Assembly (NCBI GenBank): GCA_037349105.1
Contig: JAYJMM010000106.1
Location: 496,001 to 560,000 of the forward strand
Length of the DNA: 64,000 bases
Direction: 5' to 3'
DNA from: Limnomonas spitsbergensis
Taxonomy: Eukaryota > Chlorophyta > Chlorophyceae > Chlamydomonadales
The translations under genes and the position numbers were made by a program. Position 1 is the stretch's first letter. The number at the start of each line of letters is the position of its first letter. Shown here piece after piece: positions 1-45,273 of the stretch. The notes under the pieces are model-generated. The model did no database searches. It worked only from the letters and a program-made list of their open reading frames with translations, and had not been told where the DNA came from.

Positions 1-3000
1 TCCTTGTGCTACATGGCACCACACACGAATGGGTGAGGGGCTCAGGGTTGAGGGAGTACCCTAGCCACCGCGTCCTTGTGCTACATGGCACCACACACGA
101 GTGGGTGAGGGGCTCAGGGTTGAGGGAGTACCCTAGCCACCACGTCCTTGTGCTACATGGCACCACACACGAGTGGGTGAGGGGCTCAGGGTTGAGGGAG
201 TACCCTAGCCACCGCGTCCTTGAGCTACACGGCACCACACACGAGTGGGTGAGGGGCTCAGGGTTGAGGGAGTACCCTAGCCACCACGTCCTTGTGCTAC
301 ATGGCACCACACACGAATGGGTGAGGGGCTCAGGGATGAGGGAGTACCCTAGCCACCACGTCCTTGAGCTACATGGTACCACACACGAGTGGGTGAGGGG
401 CTCAGGGTTGAGGGAGTACCCTGGCCACCGCGTCCTTGTGCTACACGGCACCACACACGAGTGGGTGAGGGGCTCAGGGTTGAGGGAGTACCCTAGCCAC
501 CGCGTCCTTGAGCTACACGGCACCACACACGAGTGGGTGAGGGGCTCAGGGTTGAGGGAGTACCCTAGCCACCACGTCCTTGTGCTACATGGCACCACAC
601 ACGAGTGGGTGAGGGGCTCAGGGTTGAGGGAGTACCCTAGCCACCGCGTCCTTGAGCTACACGGCACCACACACGAGTGGGTGAGGGGCTCAGGGTTGAG
701 GGAGTACCCTACCCCCCCCCCCTTGTGCTACATGGCACCACACACGAGTGGGTGAGGGGCTCAGGGTTGAGGGAGTACCCTAGCCACGCGTCCTTGAGCT
801 ACACGGCACCACACACGAGTGGGTGAGGGGCTCAGGGTTGAGGGAGTACCCTACCCCCCCCCCCTTGTGCTACATGGCACCACACACGAGTGGGTGAGGG
901 GCTCAGGGTTGAGGGAGTACCCTAGCCACCGCGTCCTTGTGCTACATGGCACCACACACGAGTGGGTGAGGGGCTCAGGGTTGAGGGAGTACCCTAGCCA
1001 CCGCGTCCTTGAGCTACACGGCACCACACACGAGTGGGTGAGGGGCTCAGGGTTGAGGGAGTACCCTAGCCACCGCGTCCTTGAGCTACATGGCACCACA
1101 CACGAATGGGTGAGGGGCTCAGGGTTGAGGGAGTACCCTAGCCACCACGTCCTTGAGCTACATGGCACCACACACGAATGGGTGAGGGGCTCAGGGTTGA
1201 GGGAGTACCCTAGCCACCGCGTCCTTGAGCTACATGGCACCACACACGAATGGGTGAGGGGCTCAGGGTTGAGGGAGTACCCTAGCCACCACGTCCTTGA
1301 GCTACATGGCACCACACACGAATGGGTGAGGGGCTCAGGGTTGAGGGAGTACCCTAGCCACCACGTCCTTGAGCTACATGGCACCACACACGAATGGATG
1401 AGGGGCTCAGGGTTGAGGGAGTTCCCTAGCCACCACGTTCTTGAGCTACACGGCACCACACACGAATGGGTGAGGGGCTCAGGGTTGAGGGAGTACCCTA
1501 GCCACCACGTCCTTGTGCTACATGGCACCACACACGAATGGGTGAGGGGCTCAGGGTTGAGGGAGTACCCTAGCCACCGCGTCCTTGTGCTACATGGCAC
1601 CACACACGAGTGGGTGAGGGGCTCAGGGTTGAGGGAGTACCCTAGCCACCACGTCCTTGTGCTACATGGCACCACACACGAGTGGGTGAGGGGCTCAGGG
1701 TTGAGGGAGTACCCTAGCCACCGCGTCCTTGAGCTACACGGCACCACACACGAGTGGGTGAGGGGCTCAGGGTTGAGGGAGTACCCTAGCCACCACGTCC
1801 TTGTGCTACATGGCACCACACACGAATGGGTGAGGGGCTCAGGGATGAGGGAGTACCCTAGCCACCACGTCCTTGAGCTACATGGTACCACACACGAGTG
1901 GGTGAGGGGCTCAGGGTTGAGGGAGTACCCTGGCCACCGCGTCCTTGTGCTACACGGCACCACACACAAGTGGGTGAGGGGCTCAGGGTTGAGGGAGTAC
2001 CCTAGCCACCGCGTCCTTGAGCTACACGGCACCACACACGAGTGGGTGAGGGGCTCAGGGTTGAGGGAGTACCCTAGCCACCACGTCCTTGTGCTACATG
2101 GCACCACACACGAGTGGGTGAGGGGCTCAGGGTTGAGGGAGTACCCTAGCCACCGCGTCCTTGAGCTACACGGCACCACACACGAGTGGGTGAGGGGCTC
2201 AGGGTTGAGGGAGTACCCTAGCCACCACGTCCTTGTGCTACATGGCACCACACACGAGTGGGTGAGGGGCTCAGGGATGAGGGAGTACCCTAGCCACCAC
2301 GTCCTTGAGCTACATGGTACCACACACGAGTGGGTGAGGGGCTCAGGGTTGAGGGAGTACCCTGGCCACCGCGTCCTTGTGCTACACGGCACCACACACG
2401 AGTGGGTGAGGGGCTCAGGGTTGAGGGAGTACCCTAGCCACGCGTCCTTGAGCTACACGGCACCACACACGAGTGGGTGAGGGGCTCAGGGTTGAGGGAG
2501 TACCCTACCCCCCCCCCCTTGTGCTACATGGCACCACACACGAGTGGGTGAGGGGCTCAGGGTTGAGGGAGTACCCTAGCCACGCGTCCTTGAGCTACAC
2601 GGCACCACACACGAGTGGGTGAGGGGCTCAGGGTTGAGGGAGTACCCTACCCCCCCCCCCTTTTGCTACATGGCACCACACACGAGTGGATGAGGGGCTC
2701 AGGGTTGAGGGAGTTCCCTAGCCACCGCGTCCTTGTGCTACATGGCACCACACACGAGTGGGTGAGGGGCTCAGGGTTGAGGGAGTACCCTAGCCACCAC
2801 GTCCTTGTGCTACATGGCACCACACACGAGTGGGTGAGGGGCTCAGGGTTGAGGGAGTTCCCTAGCCACCACGTCCTTGTGCTACATGGCACCACACACG
2901 AGTGGGTGAGGGGCTCAGGGTTGAGGGAGTTCCCTAGCCACCACGTCCTTGTGCTACACGGCACCACACACGAGTGGGTGAGGGGCTCAGGGTTGAGGGA

Positions 3001-5592
3001 GTACCCTAGCCACCACGTCCTTGTGCTACATGGCACCACACACGAATGGGTGAGGGGCTCAGGGTTGAGGGAGTGCCCTGGCCACCACGTCCTTGTGCTA
3101 CATGGCACCACACACGAGTGGGTGAGGGGCTCAGGGTTGAGGGAGTACCCTAGCCACCGCGTCCTTGAGCTACACGGCACCACACACGAGTGGGTGAGGG
3201 GCTCAGGGTTGAGGGAGTTCCCTAGCCACCACGTCCTTGAGCTACATGGCACCACACACGAGTGGGTGAGGGGCTCAGGGTTGAGGGAGTACCCTAGCCA
3301 CCACGTCCTTGTGCTACATGGCACCACACACGAGTGGGTGAGGGGCTCAGGGTTGAGGGAGTACCCTAGCCACCGCGTCCTTGAGCTACATGGCACCACA
3401 CACGAGTGGGTGAGGGGCTCAGGGTTGAGGGAGTACCCTAGCCACCACGTCCTTGTGCTACATGGTACCACACACGAGTGGGTGAGGGGCTCAGGGTTGA
3501 GGGAGTACCCTAGCCACCGCGTCCTTGTGCTACATGGCACCACACACGAGTGGGTGAGGGGCTCAGGGTTGAGGGAGTGCCCTGGCCACCACGTCCTTGA
3601 ACTACATGGCACCACACACGAGTGGGTGAGGGGTCAGGGTTGAGGGAGTACCCTAGCCACCACGTCCTTGTGCTACATGGCACCACACACGAGTGGGTTC
3701 GGGGCTCAGGGTTGAGGGAGTACCCTAGCCACCGCGTCCTTGAGCTACACGGCACCACACACGAGTGGGTGAGGGGCTCAGGGTTGAGGGAGTACCCTAG
3801 CCACCACGTCCTTGTGCTACATGGCACCACACACGAATGGGTGAGGGGCTCAGGGATGAGGGAGTACCCTAGCCACCACGTCCTTGATCTACATGGTACC
3901 ACACACGAGTGGGTGAGGGGCTCAGGGTTGAGGGAGTACCCTGGCCACCGCGTCCTTGTGCTACACGGCACCACACACGAGTGGGTGAGGGGCTCAGGGT
4001 TGAGGGAGTACCCTAGCCACCGCGTCCTTGAGCTACACGGCACCACACACGAGTGGGTGAGGGGCTCAGGGTTGAGGGAGTACCCTAGCCACCACGTCCT
4101 TGTGCTACATGGCACCACACACGAGTGGGTGAGGGGCTCAGGGTTGATGGAGTACCCTAGCCACCGCGTCCTTGAGCTACACGGCACCACACACGAGTGG
4201 GTGAGGGGCTCAGGGTTGAGGGAGTACCCTAGCCACCACGTCCTTGTGCTACATGGCACCACACACGAATGGGTGAGGGGCTCAGGGATGAGGGAGTACC
4301 CTAGCCACCACGTCCTTGAGCTACATGGTACCACACACGAGTGGGTGAGGGGCTCAGGGTTGAGGGAGTACCCTGGCCACCGCGTCCTTGTGCTACACGG
4401 CACCACACACGAGTGGGTGAGGGGCTCAGGGTTGAGGGAGTACCCTAGCCACGCGTCCTTGAGCTACACGGCACCACACACGAGTGGGTGAGGGGCTCAG
4501 GGTTGAGGGAGCACCCTACCCCCCCCCCCTTGTGCTACATGGCACCACACACGAGTGGGTGAGGGGCTCAGGGTTGAGGGAGTACCCTAGCCACCGCGTC
4601 CTTGAGCTACACGGCACCACACACGAATGGGTGAGGGGCTCAGGGTTGAGGGAGTACCCTAGCCACCGCGTCCTTGAGCTACACGGCACCACACACGAGT
4701 GGGTGAGGGGCTCAGGGTTGAGGGAGTACCCTAGCCACCACGTCCTTGTGCTACATGGCACCACACACGAGTGGGTGAGGGGCTCAGGGTTGAGGGAGTA
4801 CCCTAGCCACGCGTCCTTGAGCTACACGGCACCACACACGAGTGGGTGAGGGGCTCAGGGTTGAGGGAGTACCCTGGCCACCGCGTCCTTGTGCTACACG
4901 GCACCACACACGAGTGGGTGAGGGGCTCAGGGTTGAGGGAGTACCCTAGCCACGCGTCCTTGAGCTACACGGCACCACACACGAGTGGGTGAGGGGCTCA
5001 GGGTTGAGGGAGTTCCCTAGCCACCGCGTCCTTGTGCTACATAGCACCACACACGAGTGGGTGAGGGGCTCAGGGTTGAGGGAGTACCCTAGCCACCGCG
5101 TCCTTGAGCTACACGGCACCACACACGAGTGGGTGAGGGGCTCAGGGTTGAGGGAGTACCCTAGCCACCACGTCCTTGTGCTACATGGCACCACACACGA
5201 GTGGGTGAGGGGCTCAGGGTTGAGGGAGTACCCTAGCCACCACGTCCTTGTGCTACATGGCACCACACACGAGTGGGTGAGGGGCTCAGGGTTGAGGGAG
5301 TACCCTAGCCACCGCGTCCTTGAGCTACATGGCACCACACACGAGTGGGTGAGGGGCTCAGGGTTGAGGGAGTACCCTAGCCACCACGTCCTTGTGCTAC
5401 ATGGTACCACACACGAGTGGGTGAGGGGCTCAGGGTTGAGGGAGTACCCTAGCCACCGCGTCCTTGTGCTACATGGCACCACACACGAGTGGGTGAGGGG
5501 CTCAGGGTTGAGGGAGTGCCTTGGCCACCACGTCCTTGAACTACATGGCACCACACACGAGTGGGTGAGGGGTCAGGGTTGAGGGAGTACCC
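1..5592 (+). repeat. 72-bp minisatellite array (about 77 copies) containing a sirtuin exon
   Basis: A head-to-tail array of a 72-bp unit (24 codons) fills the left edge and continues off the window. Because 72 is divisible by 3, one forward and one reverse frame stay open for long stretches. The forward frame reads HGTTHEW followed by VRGSGLREYPSHRVLEL. The SHRVLELHGTTHE part matches the sirtuin segment that precedes the first zinc-binding CxxC, including the catalytic His of ELHG. In the unit the coding part is followed by GA|GTGGGT, a usable 5' splice site that joins in frame to the exon at 6326. Variants include GTGCTA/GAGCTA, CACG/CGCG, a poly-C version (for example near 712, 853, 2510 and 2650) and units one or two bases shorter. 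The long ORFs are probably a by-product of unit length rather than a repeat protein. Confidence 0.95.
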
Positions 5593-8500
5593 TAGCTTCA
5601 ATTTCTGGAACTACCCGGCACCTAGCCAGTGGGTTGAGGCCTTGCCCTGGCCAAAACGGCTATAATTCTCACGTCACCGCACAGATACTAGGTAGGGTGC
5701 AGGTTTTAGATTGAAGTGAGATTGCGCACAGCTGTGGAAATTGGAAACACGATGCTTATTGGTCAGGCTGACATGGGCTGCTGACAATTGCGCCCAGCCC
5801 TTGAGGTTGATTCCTCCTTGCCTCCCTCTGCCTGCCTGCCTCCCTGCCTCCCTGCTTGCCTCAATGGTAATGGCGGGTCGCCCTGGCTTCAGCAACGGAT
5901 GGACTGCATTGTATTCTTGTTGCATGCCTGGCTTGCCTGTCTGCGTGCCTGTCCGCCTGTCTGTCTGTCAGCCTGCCTGCCTGCTTGCCTGCCTCAATGG
6001 CAATGGCGGGGCGCCCTAGCTTCAGCAACGGATGGGCTGCATTTTGTTCTTGCTGCATGCCTGGCGTTGGTTCTTCCTACCACGCTTACAGGTGGGTCAT
6101 TACTAGCTGTCCTTCACATACAGAGACAGTATTTTTCCTGATGACCCCAATTTCTGTTGGCAGGGTATAGGGTTCAGGGACTGCTGTTTTTCTGATGACC
6201 TCAAAATCTGTTTGCTTCCTCATTTGGTTTGCTGACTTCCGGGTTTCCCCAACATCTGTTTGCTTCCTCATTTGGTTTGCTGACTTCCTGGTTTCCCCAA
6301 TTTCTGTTTGCTTCGTTGCTGCCAGGGTGCGCTGTTTATCATGTGGGGCCATCACCTGCCGCACCGCCATGCAAGATGAGCTGTCAGTGCTCAACCCGGG
6401 GGCTGCCGCACTCGTGGCCAGGCTGACTTCAGAGGCTGAGGAAGATGCAGGTGTGCGAAGATATGATGCAGGGCTTGATATGAGTGTTAGTGTGGGACTG
6501 TGGGTACTTGTCTTTTAGGCTGATATCAGAAGCACAGGAGGATGCAGGTGTGTCAAAGTATCAGGGGGTGGAGGTGGTTCACCTGGGTGCGAGTGTAGAC
6601 TACTGCACTCGAGTCGGGGCTGATTTCAGAGGTAGAGGTAGATGCAGGTGTGTGAAGATATGATGGAGGGGTTGATTTGAACTTTAGTGTGGGACTGTGG
6701 GTACTAGTGCCAGGGCTGATTTCAGCGGTAGAGGGTGATGCAGGTGTGTGTGGGCATGGGTATGAGTGCCAGGTTTGGCATGGGTGCCGATCAGTGATTC
6801 TTTTGGTGATGTCAGCTATTCATTGTTGGGTACTGAAATTTCCAAAACGAGCGCCGCAGGCGCAACAAAATCTTGATTCTCAGTGTTTCCTGCCCGTTTC
6901 GGATCTTTTCGGTACTAAGTGACTGTATTGGACTACAAGACCAATGATTGTTCGACACAGTGTTTCGGTTCCTAGTACCGACTAAAATAATCACTGGTGT
7001 CGATGCGGGTGTGGGCCTGGGTGCATCTGGGTTGGTCGCTCCTATAGGTAGACGCAGGCGTGGGGAAGGGGGGGAAGGATGCCGCAGGTGACCGATGTGC
7101 AGGGGGACGCGGCAGGGCTGGTAATGGGACAGGTGGGTGGGGCCAAGGAGGGTGACAGCTGATTTGTGGCTGTGCATGGCCCTCGGTTGTTAGCCAGGTG
7201 CTGCGGTGAGGGAGGCATGGTCATCATCATCCCCTAGTCAGTAGCGGCTGGGTGGTTGATGGACGTGTGTTCAGGGGAGGGGGTGCTGAGGCAGGCGCTT
7301 GGATCCCCCCACATGACTGCCCTTTGAACCCATATATCGGCAGAGACGGCAATGCTGTGTCTGCCTGTCGCTGATGCAGCACTAGACTATGGGGGTGTAC
7401 CTCTTTGTAACCCGAAACCATGAATCCTAATCCTGAAAGGCTGCGGCTGTTCGTTGCTGATTCGGCGTTGACCGCCCATCTGTACCCAAAGACCTGAAAT
7501 GGGTGGATGGGGTGAGTTCGGTCAGAATCAAGCAGTCTATGGGACCATTCTGGCCTTCAAATCCAGAAGCTGGAAAAGTTTTTGAATTTCGACGATTCCT
7601 CGACCCTCAAAATGGCCAAACAGGACAGGAGAGCCACACTTCTGTACATGCTCAACTTTCTCTTGAACCCATCTTCAGATGCCCTGTGTGGGTGTGTAAT
7701 AGTGTGGGAGTGTAATAGTGTGTGCACTAGTGTATTTTCTGACCATGACTCTATACTGCCTGTTCTGTCCAGTATTCTGTACTGCCTGTCCTATACCCTA
7801 AGCCCTAAACCCTACCCCCCTCAGGCAGTCTGACGACTGAGGCCTGGCATCGAGCCCTGCGTGCCGGCTCTGTAGAGCGCGGGGCGCTCAGCAGACAGCC
7901 GGACTCTAGCAGCTTAGATGACAGCACCGGGCAGGGCACCGACAAGACGAGCAGAGCTGCCAGCATGGTAGGCAGAGTCGAGCCGCTGGTGTTGTCACTT
8001 GATGCTGGGGCAGGCATGCGCAGATGAGGGAATGTCTGCATGCATGCCCAGACATTCCCTCAGGGGCATGGGCACGGAGCATGCATGCTCAGACATTCCC
8101 TCAGGGGCATGGGCACGGAGCATGCATGCGCAGACATTCCCTCAGGGGCATGGGCACGGAGCATGCATGCGCAGACATTCCCTCAGGGACATGGGCACGG
8201 AGCATGCATGCAGACATTCCCTCAGGGACATGGGCACAAAGCATGCATGCTCAGACATTCCCTCAGGGGCATGGGCACGGAGCATGCATGCTCAGACATT
8301 CCCTCAGGGACATGGGCACGGAGCATGCATGCAGACATTCCCTCAGGGACATGGGCACGGAGCATGCATGCTCAGACATTCCCTCAGGGACATGGGCACG
8401 GAGCATGCATGCTCAGACATTCCCTCAGGGACATGGGCACGGAGCATGCATGCTCAGACATTCCCTCAGGGACATGGCACGGAGCATGCATGCGCAGACA

Positions 8501-11500
8501 TTCCCTCAAGGGCATGGGCACGGAGCATGCATGCTCCGTGCCCACGCCCCTGAGGCCGGCACCCCTGGGGCTGTCTCATGCGTGGCAGAAAATGTCATGC
8601 ATGCCATATCTGCTTGCATGGTCTCTCCACTGTCTGCCATCCTGGACCTGCTAGCTCTTCCCTTATACTGTCTGGGCAGGCGTGCTGGTTTTAGTGGTCT
8701 GATATCCTTAGGGAGAGGGGGGGACTGCAACACCTGCGAGTCTGCAACTGCCCCTCCACTCCTCCATATGACATCTGCCCCCTACCCCTACCCCCTACCC
8801 CCTGCCCCCTGCCCCCTACCCCCTACCCCCTACACCCTACCCCCTACCCCCCTACCCCCTACCCCCTACCCCTACCCCCTACCCCCCTACCCCGTGCCCC
8901 CTACCCCCTACCCCGTGCCCCCTACCCCCTACCCCGTGCCCCCTACCCCCTACCCCCTGCCCCCTGCCCCCTACCACCTACCCCCTGCTCCCTACCCCCT
9001 ACCCCCTACCCCCTACCCCCTACCCCCTACCCCCTACCCCCTACCCCTACCCCCCTACCCCCAACACCCGTACCCCCTGGCCTCTGCCCCCTACCCCCTG
9101 CCCCCTACCCCCTACCCCCTACCCCCTACCCCCTACCCCCTACCCCCTACCCCCTACCCCCTACCCCCTACCCCCTACCCCCTACCCCCTACCCCGTGCC
9201 CCCTGCCACCTGCCACCTACCACCTGCCCCCTACCCCCTACCCCCTACCCCCTACCCCCTACCCCCTACCCCCTACCCCCTACCCCCTACCCCCCTACCC
9301 CCTACCTCCTACCCCTACCCCCCTACCCCCAACACCCGTACCCCCTGGCCTCTGCCCCCTACCCCCTACCCCCTACCCCCTATTCCCTACCCCCTGTCCC
9401 CTACCCCCTACCCCCTACCCCCTGCATCCTACCCCTACCCCCTGCCCCCTACCCCACCTGCCCCCTGCCCCCTGCCCCGTACCCCCTACCCCTGCCCCCT
9501 ACCCCCTGCCCCCTACCCCCTGCCCCCTACCCCTGCCCCCTACCCCTGCCCCCTGCCCCGTACCCCCTACCCCTGCCCCCTACCCCCTGCCCCGTACCCC
9601 CTGCCCCCTACCCCCTGCCCCCTACCCCTGCCCCCTACCCCTGCCCCCTACCCCCTACCCCGTACCCCCTACCCCTGCCCCCTACCCCCTGCCCCGTACC
9701 CCCTACCCCTGCCCCCTACCCCCTGCCCCCTAACCCTGCCCCCTACCCCTGCCCCCACCCCCTGCCCCATACCCCTGCCCCATACCCCTGCCCCATACCC
9801 TTGTAACCCTTGCCCCATACCCCAACCAAATCAGGCTGCTCATATTTGCACTGAAAACTAGATCTCAAACACATCCTTAAGCTAGTACCCTTCAGCCGGT
9901 ATCATTAAAAAATTAACTTCAAGAGACATCTTTGCACCACAGCCTCAAGCAGCATCCTTCATCGTTTTGTGATCCCCTTCAGGATGTCCTAGATCCTGTG
10001 GTAGTTTATATTTTCTCTCACATGTCTTCCTCAACACAGGGTCGGGAGTTTAAATACCGTGAACCATTTATTTCTTCCACCCTGTCTCCCAGAGGGTCAT
10101 GGGGCCTGACGTTGACCTATTGATTCCATCCATAAGCCACTTCCTCTAAACAGCATCCTTTCAATGTGTCTGTCCTCCACACACAATGCGGTCTTGAAGT
10201 CCGTTGGTGCATTGAGCTTGATTATGCCGAATATGCATCAGCAAGCACGTATTTCCATCATGTAACCTCTCCCCACCATGGAGCCTGATGATAATGTTGA
10301 TATTTTGAATGCTAGAAGAGGCTCCATCGCGCCACTCTTACTTCGTTACTTTCTTACTGTCAGCGTGATCCCCCCCACGCCACACACACGTCCCTGTCGG
10401 TCTATTTGTGTTGTTCGTGTGTCGTCCGTTGTTTCTGTTGCTGGTGCTTTGGTTTGGTCGCTCCCGCCTGTTTCGTTCCTCACTTTCTGGTTGCTCCCCG
10501 GTTTGCTCTGCCTGGCCCTTTCGCAAAAGGCTGTGGATGGTTGCGTCAACTTTGTAACGAAACACACGCAGGAGGTTCCCGTTATGAGGCCGGATGGGGA
10601 CATCGAGATTGCCGACGCAGGAAAAGGCTTTATTGTGCCGTCCTGCCGGGCCTGCAACAGCGGTATACTCAAGCCGGACGTTGTTTTCTTCGGTGCGTAT
10701 TCGTTCTTAGGGCGCAGACAGGGTGTGGGTGCATTCGCTTGTCGGAAAGGGTTGTTTTTACCACCTGGGATGAGGGCACAGAATTGTTTGGGGAAGCTGT
10801 AAGGAGATAAAGCAGGTTGTTGATTGGATCGGAAATTCATGGTGTGGAGTCAACCTTGTAGAAACCCTGGATGGAAACCATCGGAAACCCTGATGTAGGA
10901 CCAGATGTACGAACCCTCGCATGGTAAAACCTGCAACGTAAGACCTGATGGAAGCTCTCTCTTTCTGTATCGGGGGGGCTGATAGGCAGAGGAATTTATC
11001 TTCTCCCACCTACAGTTTTGCCCTGCCTGTTCTGGAGCTCACCTACCAGCTGACGGCATCCCTAATCTCCGGGCCTTAGAGCATCTGACTGTCAATGACT
11101 TGCCACCTCTGGGCCCTGCTCAAAAAGGCTTGGCCGCGTGGGCGCCTTACTAAAGAGTTGGGAGGAAGGATGGATATAAACACAAGGGAGCAGGACAAAA
11201 ATGGAGTAAAATGGAAGGTCAAGTCAAGGACTGATAATGAAGTGAGGAGCATCCGACTGTGCAAGCTGGAAAAGCTGACTGCCCCGCTGACTTTGTGTCC
11301 TGCCCTTTCAGGTGATGGCATCCCTAAGCCCCGGGCTGCTGAGGCCATGACCCTGGCATCAGAGTGCGACCTTATGATCACAATAGGTGAGCGGTTGCAT
11401 CCGCTTAGCAGGCGAAAATCCTTAACCCTAAACCCTAGGTGGGCCCTTAGAGGGGTCCCAAAAATACCCCCCACTACGTGTCCCTTCACGTAGTGGGGGG

Positions 11501-12674
11501 ACTCCCTGCAAGGAAGGGGGCCCCCCCACGTCGTGGGGGAACACCCAAAACCCGCCCTATCAACAAAATCCCGCTCCACAAATTTTGGGTCCCATACGGT
11601 AAGGTCACAAAAGCCGCGGGGCGGGATCTGCCACGGTACAAAAAGCTACGCTGATCGTACCTGGCGGGCCGCCTCTACCGTTTGGTACCTTGATTGCTGC
11701 AAAAGGAGATCCGCCATGGTTGTAATAACAACCTAGGGTTGAGGGAGGCGGGGTGACCATGGGGACTGAATGCGACCAGGCCGGATCGCACTGGAGGAGG
11801 TGTGAAGGTGAGGACAGATGCCCTGCCCTTCACCTCAAATCTGTATAAATTGTTATCAAGACATGTAATACTTCCCAAAGACCGGAAATAGCAGTTATGT
11901 CCTCAACCTGACACAGCCTTTGACAATCAGTGGGGCAGCAGCAGAGTTCAGGGGAGTGTTCCATCATGCATCCTGCATATGGGCAGGCTGCGGAGGGCAA
12001 GGAGCGCGGGCGGTGTCGAATATGTAGCCTGGGGTCTCTCGCTTCTGGATTGACAGCTTCACGACCCATGGTATGCAGTGCTGTGCAATTGCGCAGTAAT
12101 ACAGAAATTGTATCTGTAATTACTGTATATTGCTGGTAAAAGTAGCTGAATTATGGGTAAAAGTAGCTGAATTATGGGTAAAAGTAGCTGAATTATGGGT
12201 AAAAGTAGCTGAATTTGCCATGCAATTATGGTGGTTGAAACTCAGCTTCGTAATTCAGTTGCCGTGAAGACTGGATCGGCACAGGACCCATTGTATAGCT
12301 ATGCTTCAAGGAGGTCTCCGTTGTTTTATTCCAAGCCCCCAGGGTGCAGTAGGCCATGTATTAAATTGGTTGCACTGTGACTGTCCCATGACGCCTGCCC
12401 GCTCTCCCCTGAGCTTTGTTCTCCCCCCCCCGCCACTCTCCCCCCGTCCCCACCCACCCTTACACGACCCCCTCCAGGAACCAGTCTGATGGTTTACTCG
12501 GCCTTCCGGCTCACCGAGGCCGCCAAGAAGTCCGGCGCAAAACTCATTGCCATCAATGTTGGAGCGACTCGGGCTGACAAGCTGCTGGACCACAAGTATG
12601 AGGTGCTGGCAGGAGAAGCTGCGATGAAGCTGGCCACACATGCGTCACTGCTGCTCCCTAGGGGGCAGGGGTGA
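1..12674 (+). CDS. NAD-dependent protein deacylase, class II sirtuin (SIRT4/SRT2-like), 3' part of gene
   Basis: Exons that join in phase: 6326-6450, 7825-7967, 10572-10692, 11312-11386 and 12478-12674 (stop TGA). Each is bounded by AG and GT. The preceding HGTTHE exon lies in a unit of the 72-bp array, and the Rossmann part (GAGIS) must lie off the left edge. Visible motifs: the catalytic His in ELHG; zinc ligands CLSC (6333-6344) and CRAC (exon 3); PDGDIEI; LKPDVVFFG; MITIG joined across the splice to TSLMVYSAF; and INVGATRAD, which binds NAD. Family role: NAD+-dependent removal of acyl groups or ADP-ribosylation, usually mitochondrial in the SIRT4 class. The 7825-7967 exon adds about 48 Ser/Asp-rich residues between the two zinc CxxC pairs, longer than in Arabidopsis SRT2. 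Introns hold minisatellites, hairpins and interspersed repeats. The assignment is firm; the exact HGTTH copy used is unknown. Confidence 0.93.
5593..6145. repeat. Intron stretch with a duplicated Cys/CTGC-rich block
   Basis: After the array the sequence becomes unique. It then holds two copies of a roughly 130-bp block (about 5820-5937 and 5950-6065), made of a CTGCCTGC-type microsatellite followed by CAATGGYAATGGCGGG and a shared CTTCAGCAACGGATGG segment. I see no coding exon here. Confidence 0.7.
6147..6325 (+). repeat. Duplicated 3' splice-site region upstream of a sirtuin exon
   Basis: The motif CCCCAATTTCTGTT and the block TTTGCTTCCTCATTTGGTTT recur at roughly 54-bp spacing (about 6147, 6207, 6255 and 6297). 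The last copy ends in the real acceptor GCTGCCAG at 6325. Copies of the acceptor's pyrimidine tract thus lie in tandem before the exon. Confidence 0.75.
6421..6775 (+). repeat. Degenerate tandem copies of sirtuin exon end plus 5' splice site
   Basis: The exon end GGCTGACTTCAGAGGCTGAG...GATGCAG|GTGTG (6421-6455) is followed by three diverged copies at about 6518, 6625 and 6715. Each keeps GGCTGATNTCAG and GATGCAG|GTGTG. The copies carry in-frame stops when read as extra exons, so they are probably intronic. Confidence 0.75.
6776..7824 (+). other. Sirtuin intron, no further feature recognised
   Basis: Mostly unique sequence between the degenerate exon-end copies and the exon at 7825. It contains GT-rich and purine-rich stretches. 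ORFs of 60-120 codons occur on both strands but show no recognisable domain or matching splice phases. Confidence 0.5.
8040..8540. repeat. 41-bp minisatellite, about 12 copies
   Basis: The unit has a CAGACATTCCCTCAGGG core, then GCATGGGCACGGAGCATGCA. Spacing is 41 bp, with a few shorter units. It lies in the sirtuin intron after the 7825-7967 exon. All three forward frames stay open across most of it, so the overlapping ORFs are artefacts. The first copy is preceded by an inverted partial copy (GAGGGAATGTCTG, about 8027), and the last is followed by GCATGCTCCGTGCCC, also inverted, so both ends can fold back. Confidence 0.9.
8775..9828. repeat. CCCCTAC/CCCCTGC heptamer-type array
   Basis: About 1 kb of CCCCTAC units, with CCCCTGC, CCCGTAC and 6-bp variants. 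It is strongly strand-asymmetric (C-rich on +), so the complementary strand is G-rich with many GGGG runs. It lies within a sirtuin intron. The unit is not the plant (CCCTAAA) or Chlamydomonas (CCCTAAAA) telomere repeat. Confidence 0.92.
9829..10494 (+). other. Sirtuin intron, no feature recognised
   Basis: Ordinary-complexity intron sequence between the C-rich array and an interspersed repeat. I see no exon with matching phases or a known domain. Confidence 0.5.
10495..10560 (+). repeat. Interspersed repeat family R7, copy 1
   Basis: CCCCGGTTTGCTCTGCC through TTGCGTCAACTTTGTAAC matches 62874-62937 over about 64 bp with a few substitutions. It ends 11 bp before the acceptor of the sirtuin exon at 10572. 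Weaker similarity extends upstream to about 10400. Confidence 0.75.
11090..11230 (+). repeat. Interspersed repeat family R1, copy 1
   Basis: Shares CACCTCTGGGCCCTGCTC, then GGC(C)GCNTGGGCGCYT, GGGAGGAA and a GGTCAAGT tail with copies at 12718, 36284 and 41914. All four are in the same orientation. It lies in the sirtuin intron just upstream of the exon at 11312. Confidence 0.85.
11464..11545. repeat. Strong hairpin pair
   Basis: CCCCCCACTACGTG and CACGTAGTGGGGGG form a perfect 14-bp inverted repeat around a 6-nt loop (11466-11499). A second GC-rich inverted repeat, CCCCCCCACG/CGTGGGGG, follows at about 11522-11540. Both lie in the sirtuin intron downstream of the exon ending at 11386. They may be a foldback element remnant. 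Confidence 0.8.
12085..12290 (+). repeat. Interspersed repeat family R6, copy 1, with internal 21-bp x4 repeat
   Basis: The order is TACAGAAATTGTATCTGTAA, CTGGTAAAAGTAGCTGAATT, TTGAAACTCAGCTTCGTAAT, then GGATCGGCACAGG. The same order recurs at 26462-26610, and in reverse at about 63055-63150. In this copy GTAAAAGTAGCTGAATTATGG is repeated four times in tandem (about 12136-12215). Confidence 0.8.
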
Positions 12675-15663: not shown

Positions 15664-18600
15664 TCACCGCCGAACGACATTCGGTCGCACTGCCGGCATC
15701 CTCGTTACGATCGATTCAGACCTGCTCATGTGAGCGGGAGGTCTGAGGACGAGGGGCGACTCGGTTCCATTCCCGCCCGCCGCCAGCTGCCACACCGCAT
15801 CCTGGCGACTGACAGAGGGCGGTTCCTTGGGTGAGCCCAGCGCCAAAGGGCTGCCCCCCGCCGCGGAAGTGCCGGAGACTTCAGGCTGAGATGACAGCCT
15901 GAAGGAGAAGTTGGCGGTGTATGGCGGGGCCTCCGTACCTGCAGACGTTGAAGTATTGGAGTTAAATCTGTGGTGCACACCAACACCCGGCGGTTGACGG
16001 CGGTTGACGGCGGTTGACGTCCGTAGGTTATGCAGGCAGAGTGCATTTCCAAGGAACCACCAGTTTTGACTCGCAGGAAGGAGCAGAGGAACAGATTTCA
16101 TATCTTGGCAGAGATCTGGATTTTGTCTTTCAACAATGCTCCCCCGCATCGATTTTGAGTAACATTCTTGCGAACCACCCACCTCTTGCGAACCACCCGA
16201 TTGGATATTGAGGCGTACACACTCACGTGCTACTTGTTTTCGATGCATCACGATTCAGTTTGGGACAATCTGATGCTTTCTTGTACCTGCTGCTGACACT
16301 CTCCCCTCCCCCCCCTCCCCACTCCTCACCCGATGATCCCTGCCATCTGTTCCCATTCCGTGCAAAATCCTTTCTCCCCACCTTGCTCCCTGCTCCCCCC
16401 TCCCTGCTCCCCTCTCCCTGCTCCCCCCTCCCCCCTCCCTGCTCCCCCCTCCCTGCTCCCTGCTCCCCTCTCCCTGCTCCCCCCTCCCCCCTCCCTGCTC
16501 CCCGCTCCCTGCTCCCTGCTCCCCTCTCCCTGCTCCCCCCTCCCTGCTCCCCCCTCCCTGCTCCCCCCTCCCTGCTCCCCCCTCCCCCCTCCCTGCTCCC
16601 CTCTCCCTGCTCCCTGCTCCCCGCTCCCTGCTCCCCGCTCCCTGCTCCCTGCTCCCCTCTCCCTGCTCCCCCCTCCCCCCTCCCTGCTCCCCCCTCCCTG
16701 CTCCCTGCTCCCCTCTCCCTGCTCCCCCCTCCCCCCTCCCTGCTCCCCCCTCCCCCCTCCCTGCTCCCCTCTCCCTGCTCCCCCCTCCCCCCTCCCTGCT
16801 CCCCCCTCCCTGCTCCCCCCTCCCTGCTCCCCCCTCCCTGCTCCCCGCTCCCTGCTCTCCCCTCCCTGCTCCCCCCTCCCTGCTCCCCCCTCCCTGCTCC
16901 CCCCTCCCAGCTCCCCCCTCCCTGCTCCCCCCTCCCTGCTCCCCCCTCCCTGCTCCCCCCTCCCTGCTCCCCGCTCCCTGCTCCCCCCTCCCTGCTCTCC
17001 CCTCCCTGCTCCCCCCTCCCTGCTCCCCCCTCCCTGCTCCCCCCTCCCTGCTCTCCCCTCCCTGCTCCCCCCTCCCTGCTCTCCCCTCCCTGCTCCCCCC
17101 TCCCTGCTCCCTGTCCCCTCCCTGCTCTCCCCTCCCTGCTCCCCCCTCCCAGCTCCCCCCTCCCTGCTCTCCCCTCCCTGCTCTTCCCTCCCTGCTCTTC
17201 CCTCCCTGCTCCCCCCTCCCTGCTCTTCCCTCCCTGCTCCCCCCTCCCTGCTCCCCCCTCCCTGCTGTCCCCTCCCTGCTGTCCCCTCCCTGCTCTTCCC
17301 TCCCTGCTCTTCCCTCCCTGCTCCCCCTCCCTGCTCCCCCCTCCCTGCTCCCCCTCCCTGCTCCCCCCTCCCTGCTCTCCCCTCCCTGCTCTCCCCTCAC
17401 TGCCCCCCCCTCCCTGTTCACCCCTCCCTGCTCCCCGCTCCCTGCTCCCCGCTCCCTGCTCTCCCCTCCCTGCTCCCCCCTCCCTGCTCCCCCCTCCCAG
17501 CTCCCCCCTCCCTGCTCCCCCCTCCCTGCTCCCCCCTCCCAGCTCCCCCCTGCCGCTCCCCCACTCCCCTCTCTCTGATCCTCCCCCCACTTATGCTCCC
17601 TGCCCACCCCCACTCCCCTGCTCCTCACCTGCCCCTCCCCCCGGTGATTCGGCTCCTGTGATGCCGACCCCACGGTAGCCAAGCGACACCGGGCGGCACG
17701 CCACCGGCGCGATGCGTGGCAGACCACCCATGGATTCCCCGACCCGCACGCCAACCATGTGGCTGCCCATAGCACGCCGCTCGCAACCCCCGTTTGTGGA
17801 CGGCGTAGTCGCCGCTGAGCCTAGGGCCCCCGAGAGGTCTCCCGAGCCCGGGTAGCCCATCTGGCGGAATGTGTCGCGGCCGCGGGTGCCCGTGCTGCTG
17901 TCCCGACGGATCAGCGGCTGCGTCTGCGGGAGAGGTCCGGATCTTGGCGCCTCCTGCCCCGTGATCACGGTCAGGGGGCCCAACGCACCGCCGTCCCGGC
18001 GAGCGCGCGGGGAGCCACCTCCTGACTGAGGTACTGAGGAAGGAAGGCTCCCGCTGCTGATCTCCCTGGTTCGGATGCCTCCGCCACGCCGCGGGTCCGG
18101 GGAAAGGCACTCTGATCCTGTTGGTGTGAGGCTCCCTAGATCTCTGTCCTCTTTATCGGTGATGTAAGCTTGGAGACCTAGTGCAGCGCGCCGCCTTGCG
18201 TCCGACTCCTGAGTAAGGATCCAGGGTAAGGGTTTGAGAGGTTAGGAATACCTAGGTCCTGGGTAAGGTCCTGGGTAAGGTTTCAGAGATTAGGAATACC
18301 ATTTCCTGTCATCTGCCGCCTGGATTAGGGCGAATAGATTAGGCGCCGGCCCCATGTCGTCCGCCTCCTGGGTCAAGGGTTAAGATTTCAGGGTTAAAAT
18401 GCCCGCCGCATGTCCTCCAAATCTTGGCCGATCAGGGTTTGATGTTAAGGCACCCGCCTCATGTAGTCTGATTCCTGGATTAAGCATTGAGGGTTTAGAC
18501 ACTCTGCCGTCTTGTATCCAAACCATGGGTTCAGGGTCCTCCGTCAGCTACATGATGCCATGGACTCTGGGTGGGTCGGGCAGCTGACCAACAGCACAAG

Positions 18601-25980: not shown

Positions 25981-28900
25981 ATGTCCCTGCTGGGCCCACT
26001 TGTGGCCCTCATGGCAGCCCTCCTTGTGGGTCACATGTTGTACACAGCCAACCAGCCCAGCCCCCTCGTGCCGGAGTCTGAAGTTCATGCATATGGAGGC
26101 CAGCTCTTCACACTTAAGGTGGGTCAGGATGCAAACGATGCTCAGCTGCCCAGGCTGACAGAGATTTCTTGATTTAGGACAGGGGTGTGATTCCCCAGCA
26201 GTGTTTGTTTTCTTGTGCACTCGAGCACCTTTGGCAAGCAGGCCACTTATCAGCCACCACGGGGCAGATGGGGATCAAATCTTGATCGGCCTACGGCCAG
26301 TGACCAAAGCAGCAGGGCCTGGCGATAAAAACGAGTGGCAAACAAAGTATCCCGTTGGCTGCCTGGCATGGGAAGCTCAGGAGCGCAGCTGCTGTTAAGG
26401 GCTACGGCCAGCGGCGCCTGGCAGCAGTGGGCAGCCTACATCTTCAGCCTCATAACCCGTGCTGTGATTGCGCCGTAATTCAGAAATTGTGTAAGTCATT
26501 GCGGCACCTTCCTGGTAAAAGTAACAGAATTTGCCTTGAAATAAGGGTGACTGAAACTCAGCTACGGTATGCAATTCAGCCACCACAAGGACCGTAACCG
26601 GCACAGCACTGCTTTTAACCCTAATGGTGCGGATGCCTCTTCGTACTTTCCTTCTCTGCTCTGTTCACGGCCCTTGCGGCCCAGATTCCTTCCGCACCAC
26701 CTTTCCAGCCTTTTGGCTCATGTATCGCCTTGCAGACTCACCTAAGAACCCGATGCACCATCTCTGCGATTATGGGCAGGATGGACGCGTCCTGGAATAC
26801 TTTGACAGCGGGGCGTCTGGCGTGCCTGATAGCGGGAAGCTGGATGCGCCTATCCTTGTAGCGGTCCATGGAGGCATCATGACAGGTGCAGATCAGTGTT
26901 TCTTTTAGCGCGCATCAGCTACAATTCGGCTACATCACAGACTACGGCCGTGGCTGCCGGTCTGAAGCGGGAGTGTAGCTGACATGTAGCTGAGTAACGA
27001 AAAATAAACACTGCCCCCTCCTGCAAATGGCTTGTGTGGACAAGATTCGTTTTTTTTATTAAAACAAAGTTTTAATCAAAGAAAAGTCTCATGCCCTGCA
27101 GGATGGTCATTACAGGGCATGGGCTTGCAGGACAGGTTTCGCGTCATCTCCCCGACCTACCCCGGCTTCGGAGCCTCCCAATCCAACAATGGCAGGACCA
27201 TCCTCTCCTTCGGGCACGACGTAATGGAGCTGCTGAGTGCCCTAGATGTCGACAGCTTTGTGCTGGCAGGTGTGTTTCGGAGCCTCCCAATTTAATTATT
27301 GCAGGAACGTCCTCTCTGCTGGGCTTGACATTATTTAGCTGCTGAGCGCCTTGCGTATGGACAGCTTTGTTCTGGCCTGTGTGTGGGCTGTTGGTTGAAC
27401 TGTGCTCCCTCCTTCGGGCACGACGTAATGGAGCTGCTGAGCGCACTAGGTGTCGACAGCTTTGTGCTGGCAGGTGTGTTTCGGAGCCTCCCAATTGAAT
27501 TATTGCAGGAACGTCCTTTCTGCTGGGCTTGACATTATTTAGCTGCTGAGCGCCTTGCGGATGGACAGCTTTGTTCTGGCCTGTGTGTGGGCTGTTGGTT
27601 GAACAGTGCTCCCTCCTTCGGGCACGACGTAATGGAGCTGCTGAGCGCACTAGGTGTCGACAGGTTTGTGCTGGCAAGTGTGTTTCGGAGCCTCTCAATT
27701 GAATTACTGCAGGAACGTCCTCTCTGCTGGGCTTGACATTGTTTAGCTGCTGAGCGCCTTGCGTATCGACAGCTTTGTGCTGGCAGGTGTGTGGGCTGTT
27801 GGTTGAACAGTGCTCCCTCCTTCGGGCACGACGTGAGGGAGCTGCTGAGCGCACTAGGTAAAGACAGGTTTGTGCTGGCAGTGTAGGCTTGTAGCGTTAT
27901 GAGAAGGCTAGGAAAGGCTTGATAATGAAACACGCCCCAACCTCGCGTGAATCTGTCTGGCTCATCCATCCCGAGGGATATTAGCCAGTCCAGGCGTGCC
28001 TAAATGGGCATGCCGTGCGGCACTAAGCCATCAATCAAAGTAGCAGCGTCAGTACTTAACTGAGATGCTGGCGGGTGTGCGTATTGTTTTGTGACGTAGT
28101 TTAGGGTTCAATGAAGGTTTGTTTATTGCCTATGGTAGTGGTCACCAGAATATCTTAAACAAACTGCTGGCCGCCGCCAGCACACCACTGGTCAGAAGGT
28201 GAGCGGACTTATTGAATGTGGGCCTTGACCAGCCTACAGTCAATGCCCCAGACAGGAGGGCTTGATGCATTAGCCCCCCTGGCTGCAGGTCGTTATGTAG
28301 CTGAAGGCTATATGAGGCACTCTAAATTTGGCAGTTGTGTGAGACAGGGCACGAAATGTTCGTCCTGAGAAAGATAACCAGTGAGAGGGAGTCTTTGAGG
28401 GGTGGAAGCTGGGGCACTCGAATTTGGCAGTTGTGTGAGACAGGGCACGAAATGTTCGTCCGGAGAAAGATAACCAGCGAGAGGGAGTCTTTGAGGGGTG
28501 GAAGCTGGGGCACTCGAATTTGGTAGTTGTGTGAGACAGGGCACAAAATGTTCGTCCTGAGAAAGATAACCAGCGAGAGGGAGTCTTTGAGGGGTGGAAG
28601 CTGGGGCACTCGAATTTGGTAGTTGTGTGAGACAGGGCACAAAATGTTCGTCCGGAGAAAGATAACCAGTGAGAGGGAGTCTTTGAGGGGTGGAAGCTGG
28701 GGCACTCGAATTTGGCACCGGCAATATTTGGGGAGGTTAAAATTATATTTTCCTTGTTAGGCTTTCTAGGGTTTGATGAGCATGGTATTCAGGGCTTTAC
28801 AAACTGGTCGGTTCCCGGAGACTTTTGGACAAAGAAAAAACAACCCGGGGAAAAGCTAGATGGCACCTCCGGCGAAGCCAGGAAAAAAACGAGAAAGTGT

Positions 28901-31900
28901 GGATGTTCTCCAGCTGGGTCATTTCGGGCCGGACCCCAGGAATCTTGTCAGGCTCCTATAAACTCTCCGGTTGTTCCTCTATTATTGCGACTTGAGCTTT
29001 GCGTTATTATTTATAAAATCCCTTATCTCGAATTTCTGGTGTAAGCCCAGCTGTTGGAAAGAGGTCGCCATTGGAATCGCGCAGAAGGAAAACTGATGTG
29101 CTGACATTCGGGCAAGTGTGTCGATGAAGGGGCGGTGATGTGCTGGCAAGGGAGGAGCACAAGCTTGGGCTTGATAGGATGTTTATGTTGTGGGCTCAGA
29201 CTATACCCAAGGGCTCTACCTAAGGACCTTGCTTGAAAAAACGAGGTGTCGATATCCTGTTAAGACAGTCATTCGGTGCGCAAGCAGTCGCCAAACAACC
29301 TTTGCCAGCCTCTTCTGTTTGCTCCCTCCGCCCACCGGGACGCATATGGGAGGAAGGAACTCATTCCGCAGGGTGAAGGGTTCACCTTCAACAGCAAAAC
29401 AACGTCATACAATCTCTCCTTACCATGATGCAGCTGGGACGGAAGAGCTAGCTTGGGGTCCGCCCTGAACCCCGAACCGGGTCCAGTGGTCCACCATGGT
29501 CACTCAGAGCCCTGAACCCTACAGCCCAAACCCTAAAATCCCATTATCTCTCCCCCATCAGGATGCAGCTGGGGTGGAGGCGCTAGCTTGGGGTCCGCCC
29601 TGAACCCCGAACCCTACAGCCCATACCCTGAACCCATTCTCTCTCCCCCATCAGGATGCAGCTGGGGTGGACCTCATTCAGCAGCTATAGCGCTGGCGGC
29701 TGAGACAGCCGCAGCAGCTGCTGTCACAGATGCCGCCGCCGCCGCAGCAGCAGCAGCAGCAGCAACGCCCGAGGACCCCTCCGCCACTGCGGATTCTCCA
29801 GAAACAGGAGCAGCAGCAGAGGCAGCAGCGTCCATTCCTCCTGGATCGGCCCCAGGTCCGGTCCTGGCCTGGCTGATGATGGCGCCAGCTGTTCCAGCAA
29901 TGCTGGATTTTCCTGGTTGGACAGCGCTCTCACCGCAGCGCCTGGTGAGCCAAAGGGGCAGATGGGATTTCATTTTGGCTGACTTAAAAAGACATCAGAC
30001 AACTGGCATGTTTTGCTGAATCGGTTGGCCATTTGGCATGTTTTGATACATCTGACGGTGGGCATGTTTCGATGCCCGTGTTAATGCTATGCTAGTGCTA
30101 GGTTCGGGACATCTGCTAGTGCTAGGTTCGGGACAGATCTGCTAGTGCTAGGTTCGGGACAGATCTGCTAGTGCTAGGTTCGGGACAGATCTGCTAGTGC
30201 TAGGTTTGGGACAGATCTGCTAGTGCTAGGTTCGGGACAGATCTGCTAGTGCTAGGTTCGGGACAGATCTGCTAGTGCTAGGTTCGGGACAGATCTGCCG
30301 GCTATCACTGCCTGGTCCAGGTCCCCTCACCTTTCATCAACTGTACTACAGCCTGTGGCTGGGAGTGCCACAGCCTGTGGCTGGGAGTGCTACAGCCTGT
30401 GGCTGGGAGTGCTACAGCTTGTAGCGGGGAGTGCTACAGCCTGTGGCTGGGATTTCTACAGCCTGTAGCTGGGAGTGCTACAGCCTGTGGCTGGGAGTGC
30501 TACAGCCTGTGGCTGGGAGTGCTACAGCCTGTGGCTGGGAGTGCTACAGCCTGTAGCTGAGAGTGCTACAGCCTGTGGATGGGAGTGCTACAGCCTGTGG
30601 ATGGGAGTGCTACAGCGTGTAGCGGGGAGTGCTACAGCCTGTAGCTGGGAGTGCTACAGCCTGTGGCTGGGAGTGCTACAGCCTGTGGCTGGGAGTGCTA
30701 CAGCCTGTGGCTGGGAGTGCTACAGCCTGTTGCTGGGAGTGCTACAGCCTGTAGCTGGGAGTGCTACAGCCTGTAGCGGGGAGTGCTATAGCCTGTGGCT
30801 GGGAGTGCTACAGCCTGTAGCTGGGAGTGCTACAGCCTGTGGCTGGGAGTCCTACAGCCTGTGGCTGGGAGTGCTACAGCCTGTAGCTGGGAGTGCCACA
30901 GCCTGTGGCTGGGAGTGCTACAGCCTGTAGCTGGGAGTGCTACAGCCTGTGGCTGGGAGTGCTACAGCCTGTGGCTGTGTGTGCTACGGCCTGTAGCTGG
31001 GAGTGCCACAGCATGTGGCTGGGAGTGCTACAGCTTGTAGCGGGGAGTGCTACAGCCTGTAGCTGGGAGTGCTACAGCTTGTAGAGGGGAGTGCTACAGC
31101 CTGTGGCTGGGAGTGCAACAGTTTGTAGCGGGGAGTGCTACAGCCTGTGGCTGGGAGTGCTACAGCCTGTAGCTGGGAGTGCTACAGCCTGTGGTTGGGA
31201 GTGCTACAGCCTGGAGCTGGGAGTGCTACAGCCTGCGGCTGGGAGTGCTACAGCCTGTGGCTGGGAGTGCTACAGCCTGTAGCTGGGAGTGCTACAGCCT
31301 GTGGCTGGGAGTGCTACAGCCTGTGGCTGGGAGTGCTACAGCTTGTAGCGGGGAGTGCTACAGCCTGTGGCTGGGAGTGCCACAGCCTGTAGCTGGGAGT
31401 GCTACAGCCTGTAGCTGGGAGTGCTACAGCCTGTGGCTGGGAGTGCTACAGCTTGTAGCGGGGAGTGCTACAGCCTGTGGCTGGGAGTGCTACAGCTTGT
31501 AGCGGGGAGTGCTACAGCCTGTGGCTGGGAGTGCAACAGCCTGTAGCTGGGAGTGCTACAGCCTGTGGCTGGGAGTGCTACAGCCTGTAGCTGGGAGTGC
31601 TACAGCCTGTGGCTGGGAGTGCTACAGCCCGGGGCTGGGAGTGCTACAGCCTGTGGCTGGGAGTGCTACAGCCTGTAGCTGGGAGTGCTACAGCCTGTGG
31701 CTGGGAGTGCTACAGCCTGTGGCTGGATGTGCTACAGCTTGTAGCGGGGAGTGCTACAGCCTGTGGCTGGGAGTGCCACAGCCTGTAGCTGGGAGTGCTA
31801 CAGCCTGTAGCTGGGAGTGCTGCAGCCTGTGGCTGGGAGTGCTACAGCCTGTGGCTGGGAGTGCTACAGCCTGTAGCTGGGAGTGCCTGGAACAGCATGC

Positions 31901-43852: not shown

Positions 43853-44449
43853 TCATTTAAAGCCAAAGCTATAGAAGACCTGAACAACTGACTTGCGACC
43901 CCTCTCGACAGCCAGCCGCAACGCAGCCATGACCCAGCCATTCCGAGCCGCTGCGTCAACGCGATCCATGCCGCTGAGCAGCGCATGCACCACACCGGCA
44001 TACTTGTTAAATGCCGCGATTTGCAAGACCGTGTTCCCGTGGGGACCCGTACCGTCAATGACCCCCCCCTTGTGATTCAGCAGCTCCCGCACCACGTCCG
44101 TGTAATTCATGTAGCAGGCCAACTGCAGCGCGGTCAAGCCACCCTCATTGGCTGTGTTGGGCCGGATGTCGGGTTGTTGCAGCAACAGCGCTACTGCGCC
44201 GGGCTGGTTGTTGTCCGCAGCCCATGCCAGCGGGGTGTTGCCCTTCTTGTCAACAGCGTTCACACTAACTGCTGACGCCCCAGCAGACAGTCGTCGGCGG
44301 CGTGCCGGCTGTGAAGATTCCTCTGTCCTCCTCCTCTTAGCTGATGAAGGAGACGATGCGCAGCTGGCAGCCGTCGCAGCCGATGATGGCCCATGATGAG
44401 CAGCAACAGGTGTGTCCCGTGAGGAGCAACAGCCTCTCTCCATACAGGG

Positions 44450-44491
<42 letters not shown>

Positions 44492-44841
44492 GACAGGGGA
44501 GCTGTAGCCGCCACTTCCTTCTGAATCATCTTCACCAGTTTGCGCAAGCAACTCCCTCATGACGTCCACGTGGCCCAGCTTGGCGGCAAGGTGTAGGACC
44601 GACCAGTGGCCGTCGGATGTCACAGCGTCCATGCGCAGCGCAGGTTCGGCCAGCAGCAGCCTCATAGCAGAGACGTTGTTATGCTGACATGCCTCATGCA
44701 GCGGAGTCCAGCCCTGCACGTCTCCTCGGTTTACATCGATGCCCGGCACGGTTAACAGATAGGCAATGACAGGGGTAGCGTCAGTGGAGAGCACAGCATC
44801 CTGCCGAGAGCAGCAGTGGGAGTCCAAATGTTGCCCCTGCT

Positions 44842-44872
<31 letters not shown>

Positions 44873-45273
44873 CAAGAGCTGCTGGGATGTCCAGCGGCAA
44901 CACGCATGCAGAAGGGTACCCCTCTTGCCGGCCATCTCGGCGTCATTGACGTCCGCCTTGTGGACCTAGATCACCCGCTGGAGCACGGCGAGGTCCCCAC
45001 GCTCTGCGGCCATGAACGCTGCGCGTGCACCGTACTTTGCCCACAGCCATGCAGCCTTCAGCTCCACGCTGCTGGCCAGTGCGTGCATGTTGCGGCATAA
45101 GCCAAAACATGCTGTGACGTCCGAGCACAGGGGTAGATATTGGGATACGATGAGCTCTTGCATCTCGACAGGCAGGCAGGAGAGGCCAACCACCTGTTGC
45201 AGAAAGGGGGTGAGCCATGCACAATGTTAGGCGCTAAGTGGGGGGCTAATTGCAGTACCTTTGGGACACTCAT
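43853..45273 (-). CDS. F-box-like/ankyrin-repeat protein with an in-frame TAG
   Basis: Exon 1 45273-45259 (MSVPK), intron 45258-45194 (GTACTG...AACAG), exon 2 45193-43853 ending TGA. The N-terminus VVGLSCLPVEMQELIVSQYL resembles an F-box-like motif. The rest holds ankyrin repeats: GWTPLHEACQHNNVSAMRLL, WSVLHLAAKLGHVDVMRELL, GNTPLAWAADNNQPGAVALL, LTALQLACYMNYTDVVRELL and GNTVLQIAAFNKYAGVVHAL. Between repeats 2 and 3 is a low-complexity insert with an Ala run and an RRRR patch; a His6/Gln6 tract lies near the start of the ankyrin part. The F-box-like and ankyrin parts share one frame but are split by a TAG codon (minus strand, 44968-44966) after LAVLQRVI. So this is either a recent nonsense allele, a sequencing error, or a downstream start at MAGKRG (44935). 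Expected role: a substrate adaptor of a ubiquitin ligase (inference). Confidence 0.85.

Follow-up and report, generated by a model that had tools for sequence, protein, structure and literature searches.

Tandem copies of an exon edge in a SIRT4-like sirtuin gene of the green alga Limnomonas spitsbergensis: a probable intronic minisatellite

Minisatellite-like tandem duplications of exon/intron boundaries, named mirages, have been described in amphioxus, at either end, in Adh3 and in the globin genes BflGb6 and BflGb9; the sections of that report drawn on here give units of 10–72 bp in Adh3 and of 150–160 bp in the globins, with 3 and 6 units in the BflGb6 mirages (PMC3087553). According to the same sections, splicing appeared undisturbed by reverse transcription polymerase chain reaction (RT-PCR), and the structures varied between haplotypes, with length instability (PMC3087553). 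An excerpt on primate-specific human genes states that internal tandem repeats at exon-intron boundaries can alter gene structure (PMC2812944), and an excerpt on intron gain by tandem genomic duplication describes a new intron that arises inside an exon (PMC4974935). Here we analyze a tandem array of a unit of about 72 bp in a sirtuin gene of the green alga Limnomonas spitsbergensis. The window, which is the whole analyzed stretch of 64,000 nucleotides, corresponds to C106:496001-560000 (contig JAYJMM010000106.1) and begins inside the array; the 10 kb upstream were also read. The array is very probably a minisatellite of intron 5, grown from the boundary of exon 5 and intron 5 and spliced out from the donor nearest to the exon.

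The array and the exon that it adjoins

Each array unit joins 38 nt from the end of sirtuin exon 5 to the 34 nt with which intron 5 begins. The complete exon 5 is located immediately 5' of the array, beyond the window (C106:493993-494090), and reads NVDRLH...HRVLELHGTTHE/GTGGGT, the slash marking the donor. A tandem-repeat scan of window positions 1-5596 gave a 72-bp unit in 77.9 copies with 94% matches, and an anchored count gave 78 copies, spaced by 72 bp (65) or 71 bp (12). With the upstream stretch included, the array comprises 105 units in about 7.5 kb (spacings of 72 bp, 86; of 71 bp, 18), its first donor being at C106:494091 and its last at C106:501561; the final blastn match of the exon 5 boundary extends to window position 5618 with 86% identity. 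One unit searched by DNA against the whole genome, a 260-Mb assembly of 124 contigs for which match counts are lower bounds, gave at least 105 matches, all inside this array. Comparison of 104 units distinguishes 35 variants, of which 20 are unique, and a block of nine consecutive units recurs in the same order 21 units further on.

The first-pass annotation had reported a minisatellite of about 77 copies with an exact 72-bp period, each unit being a sirtuin exon with the catalytic-His strand and a donor GA/GTGGGT that joins in frame to the next exon at 6326. The array is real, with an inexact period; the motif and donor are as described, although V takes the place of the E of LELHG in 43 of the 86 72-bp units; and the in-frame joining is borne out by exon 6. 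The unit is an exon end with an intron start, not an exon, so the proposed growth of the array from the exon holds for the edge of the exon and the adjoining donor, which were amplified within the gene itself, and not for the whole exon. A normal HGTTH exon upstream, used in transcripts with no array unit spliced and related to the array by chance at most, had been named as evidence against that origin: an intact exon was found there, and its sequence relation to the array is clear.

The ten exons modelled around the array have AG/GT sites and together give a single open frame of 476 residues. The SIR2 domain (Pfam PF02146) scores 112.2 bits against a cut-off of 24 (E 3.6e-32), and among solved structures the nearest in sequence is that of an NAD-dependent protein deacylase, 5oj7 (E 1.3e-52). 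Among the 120 relatives listed of 2100, the best three share 51, 50 and 48% identity, followed, as the labels were read, by Myrmecia bisecta (47%), Botryococcus (45%), Asterochloris (43%), Sanguina aurantia (41%) and many land plants. Judged from these matches, the gene encodes a predicted SIRT4-like sirtuin. As in other SIRT4-like members of the SIR2 family, the domain, the catalytic-His strand and both Cys pairs are retained: H252, which we take to be the catalytic His, and C260, C263, C371 and C374, presumably the zinc-site Cys residues, align with the homologs. Introns 1-9 measure 720, 519, 1592, 2053, 8235, 1374, 2604, 619 and 1091 bp.

The GT of the donor is kept in 84 of the 105 units and GTGGGT in 82. 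Mean per-site diversity, computed over 86 of 104 units with the 18 units of 71 bp excluded, is 0.053 in the 38 exon-derived columns versus 0.028 in the 34 intron-derived ones. If each of the 105 donors were used in turn, only the first 13, the true donor included, would leave the frame open, while 39 would shift it and 53 would lead to an in-frame stop. Because the exon-derived columns are the more diverse and so few donors leave the frame open, the copies show no sign of being maintained as exons. Ten aligned homologs show no insertion from HGTTH to the V-x-C that follows (P0013 is without the following part). The intact upstream exon, the loss of frame at distal donors and the homologs without insertion make the use of the exon-nearest donor likely, and the array would then be intron. 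Where exons are short and introns long, exon definition predicts that the site nearest to the exon is used at either end. Two consequences drawn earlier do not stand: the cell is not forced to choose among copies, as exon 5 itself is present upstream, complete and with the same donor, and 24 extra residues for each unit read through could not be gained beyond the first 13 donors.

Copies at other exon edges

Every boundary modelled in three Pfam-supported genes was searched for copies: the sirtuin, an alpha/beta hydrolase (39.6 bits) and a ZIP transporter (51.9 bits for one piece; 21.1, below the cut-off, for the other). These genes were not randomly drawn, two being in the window and the third at most 40 kb beyond it (L026, minus strand, 2775-8042). 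Intron-side copies were present at 13 of 36 boundaries at E <= 1e-3 and at 11 of 36 at E <= 1e-8, and exon-side copies at none of the 36. Donor-spanning copies lie downstream of the true exon and acceptor-spanning copies upstream of it; they are present at 7 of the 19 donors and at 6 of the 17 acceptors. By gene, copies occur at 9 of 18 boundaries in the sirtuin, 2 of 7 in the hydrolase and 2 of 11 in the ZIP transporter, where three acceptor-side copies lie upstream of exon 4 and one upstream of exon 6. The copies listed individually have 69-99% identity, a range which suggests that the duplication events differ in age. Shuffled queries gave copies in none of 180 cases.

In the sirtuin gene, a second array occupies part of intron 4 (L010:5941-7038; C106:491941-493038), in which the exon 4 end and its donor are repeated 13 times in units of about 80 or 87 bp (at least 14 genome matches, including the exon's own). 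Three acceptor-side copies of exon 4, with 72-76% identity, are found upstream of it (L010:5193-5598), so that this exon has copies at both edges. Boundary-segment matches cover 7626 of 8235 bp in intron 5, 1084 of 2053 in intron 4, 365 of 1592 in intron 3, 229 of 1374 in intron 6, 64 of 720 in intron 1, 56 of 519 in intron 2 and 33 of 619 in intron 8; no such matches occur in introns 7 and 9. Features of the window are presented in Table 1.

Table 1. Positions, within the window, of the array, of the sirtuin and hydrolase exons and of their boundary copies.
Feature	Position	Strand	Remarks
Window part of the 72-bp array, sirtuin intron 5	1..5596	+	78 of 105 units; tandem-repeat scan, unit count and upstream sequence
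Diverged last unit, remnant of exon end and donor	5597..5640	+	by eye; blastn
Sirtuin exon 6 (VRCLSCG..., zinc-binding Cys pair)	6326..6450	+	
Three diverged copies of exon 6 end and donor, intron 6	6517..6748	+	69-84% identity
Sirtuin exon 7	7825..7967	+	
Sirtuin exon 8 (second zinc-binding Cys pair)	10572..10692	+	
Weak remnant, acceptor-side copy of exon 9	11042..11074	+	25 nt exon and 8 nt intron, E 2.6e-4
Sirtuin exon 9	11312..11386	+	
Sirtuin exon 10, last, with stop	12478..12674	+	
Alpha/beta hydrolase exon 3, end duplicated	27102..27269	+	
Donor-side copies of hydrolase exon 3, following intron	27270..27881	+	period 204 bp, with sub-copies
Acceptor-side copy of hydrolase exon 4	29507..29576	+	90% identity, E 1.8e-19; offset 95 bp; upstream of true acceptor 29655
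Hydrolase exon 4 (CSWGG nucleophile elbow)	29655..29944	+	

Several observations weigh against the interpretation of the array and its fellow copies as spliced-out exon edges. Exon 5 has 8-11 residues beyond those of the ten homologs, in a stretch just before the array (L010:8017-8056), a Thr replaces a near-invariant Gly in the same exon, adjoining the array, and its donor alone among the 19 lacks a G at -1; the gene model is therefore less clean here than elsewhere. In these extra residues and the lost Gly this protein differs from other SIRT4-like sirtuins, and a sequence search for the source of the residues gave one other match only (E 0.64). Two of the 13 boundaries with copies have weak matches, namely the acceptors of sirtuin exon 9 (E 2.6e-4) and of sirtuin exon 6 (E 6.9e-4). 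In the ZIP transporter, the exon 3/exon 4 junction is out of frame in the model; without both its boundaries the tally becomes 12 of 34. Finally, exon interiors gave copies in 1 of 17 windows, a less sensitive control, with windows of 60 nt versus boundary queries of up to 120 nt.

For a view beyond these genes, 12 genome loci were picked by place and not by repeats; a codon-use scan covering 11 of these yielded 241 candidate stretches, of which 23 on 10 loci were hand-picked. Local copies overlap an end in five of the 23 candidate exons: two on L017, one each on L014 and L022 (all minus strand; in L022 little of the called exon is overlapped) and one on L021 (plus strand). A candidate on L018 has a copy in its flank only, and 17 of the 23 have none. 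The pieces from L017, L014, L022 and L021 had no Pfam match, and all were left out of the main count. Local near-tandem duplications span 23,993 of 84,000 bp around the sirtuin gene and 11,355 of the 40,000 bp downstream. In the twelve place-chosen loci, of which one (L011) is repeat throughout, they take up 49,927 of 120,000 bp. In a rough comparison of differing measures, the proportion of boundaries that have copies, 13 of 36, is about the general duplication load of the genome, with exon interiors nearly spared, which fits a neutral process.

Minisatellites are very abundant in this region. Other large tandem arrays of short units occur at window positions 8778-9800, 16386-17568, 30346-31886 and 32231-32720, and another was seen by eye at L009:1-5260. 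The window also contains a long open frame with matches to RNase H (PF00075) and PCIF1_WW (57992-60976), perhaps a retroelement, and a 360-residue open frame with ankyrin repeats on the minus strand (43853-44935).

Alternative readings and a possible route

The units might be alternative donors or mini-exons, yielding sirtuins with 24 (or 12) extra residues for each unit included. The many intact GTs and the open frame from the first 13 donors would suit such a role, as would an acceptor-like CCCTAG, which precedes the exon-derived part at 75 of the 86 places having a 72-bp unit upstream. This CCCTAG, however, is a product of the junction between units, its AG belonging to the exon Ser codon AGC; the use of the units in transcripts is improbable, considering the intact exon with the same donor upstream, the 92 of 105 donors that shift the frame or meet a stop, an exon-derived part that is not conserved (half of the 72-bp units have V for the E of LELHG) and homologs without insertion at that place. 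A specific form of this model, with a 36-nt exon, a 36-nt intron and CCCTAG as acceptor, was dropped in view of the contiguous exon upstream. A different donor inside the unit, TGG/GTGAGG, gives, by reading, no in-frame join to exon 6. Quite improbable, too, is that the array grew in a non-functional, decaying gene: the insertion and the lost Gly of exon 5 and the large repeats in several introns could be so understood, yet the ten exons keep a single long frame with AG/GT sites, the SIR2 score is far above its cut-off and the four zinc-site Cys are kept.

The long near-identical blocks, such as the nine units that recur, would be compatible with an assembly artefact in the copy number, which is known from one assembly; we regard this as very improbable, given the 35 variants, of which 20 are unique, the position of the array on a 2.6-Mb contig, and copies at other boundaries that are independent of the copy number of the array. 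Mobile intron-like elements (introners) would also present repeated sequence with splice signals. Nevertheless, three units searched across the whole genome matched their own loci only, with no dispersal over unrelated genes, and every copy carries the edge of its neighbouring exon, which leaves introners as an exceedingly improbable source; a dispersed element was likewise set aside, given these purely local matches.

For the growth of an intronic minisatellite from the exon 5 edge, we propose the following route. A tandem duplication across the exon 5/intron 5 boundary, recorded in the 38 nt and 34 nt of the unit, would have come at the beginning. The copy touching the exon would keep a full donor and leave the protein unchanged, while the other copies would become intron, as the frame and the homologs suggest. 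Unequal exchange or slippage may then have raised the number to 105 units, in line with the recurring block of nine. Intronic copies would decay, which can be read from the variants among the units, the occurrence of units of 71 bp and the divergence of the last one. The same process, with fewer copies, may have acted at other boundaries of the sirtuin gene and of the two other genes. Duplications within exons would be removed and those across a boundary hidden by splicing, and the multiplication may thus be neutral. Introns here seem to lengthen by duplication of exon edges.

Comparison with known boundary duplications

Exon-edge copying may still be going on throughout the genome and account for a sizeable part of the intron DNA of this alga, with splicing picking the exon-nearest site; drawn from three neighbouring genes and five of 23 candidate exons without Pfam support, this is put forward tentatively, as a possibility that falls somewhat short of probable. 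If true, the splicing machinery selects the exon-nearest site among up to 84 GT-intact donors in one intron, and the sirtuin gene would be a natural test of exon definition; mirages would then abound in a lineage distant from amphioxus. How the first donor is chosen can be asked directly in an intron that presents about a hundred near-identical ones. Copying of exon edges would also be a simple route for intron lengthening that leaves a readable record. In annotation, gene finders may call such units exons or break the gene.

Among the matches listed in the open-access literature, no boundary minisatellites in an alga were found. As far as the cited excerpts go, the human boundary repeats resemble the array in being minisatellites at exon-intron boundaries, and differ in having mostly few copies (on average four 30-bp units), in being partly kept in transcripts and in having been proposed as a source of novel introns (PMC2812944). 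Intron gain, as outlined in its excerpt, likewise involves a tandem duplication with splice signals within a gene; here, in contrast, an existing boundary was copied and an existing intron lengthened (PMC4974935). Known here from the genomic sequence of one assembly, the sirtuin array appears to be a structure of the mirage kind in a green alga. With the mirages, as presented in the sections cited, it shares a unit that spans an exon/intron boundary, an authentic exon that adjoins the copies (on the intron side in 13 of 13 boundaries with copies) and the involvement of both donor and acceptor boundaries (here 7 of 19 and 6 of 17). The amphioxus structures belong to a chordate, and those of BflGb6 have 3-6 units, whereas the array of this alga has 105 and copies occur at 9 of the 18 boundaries of one gene (PMC3087553).

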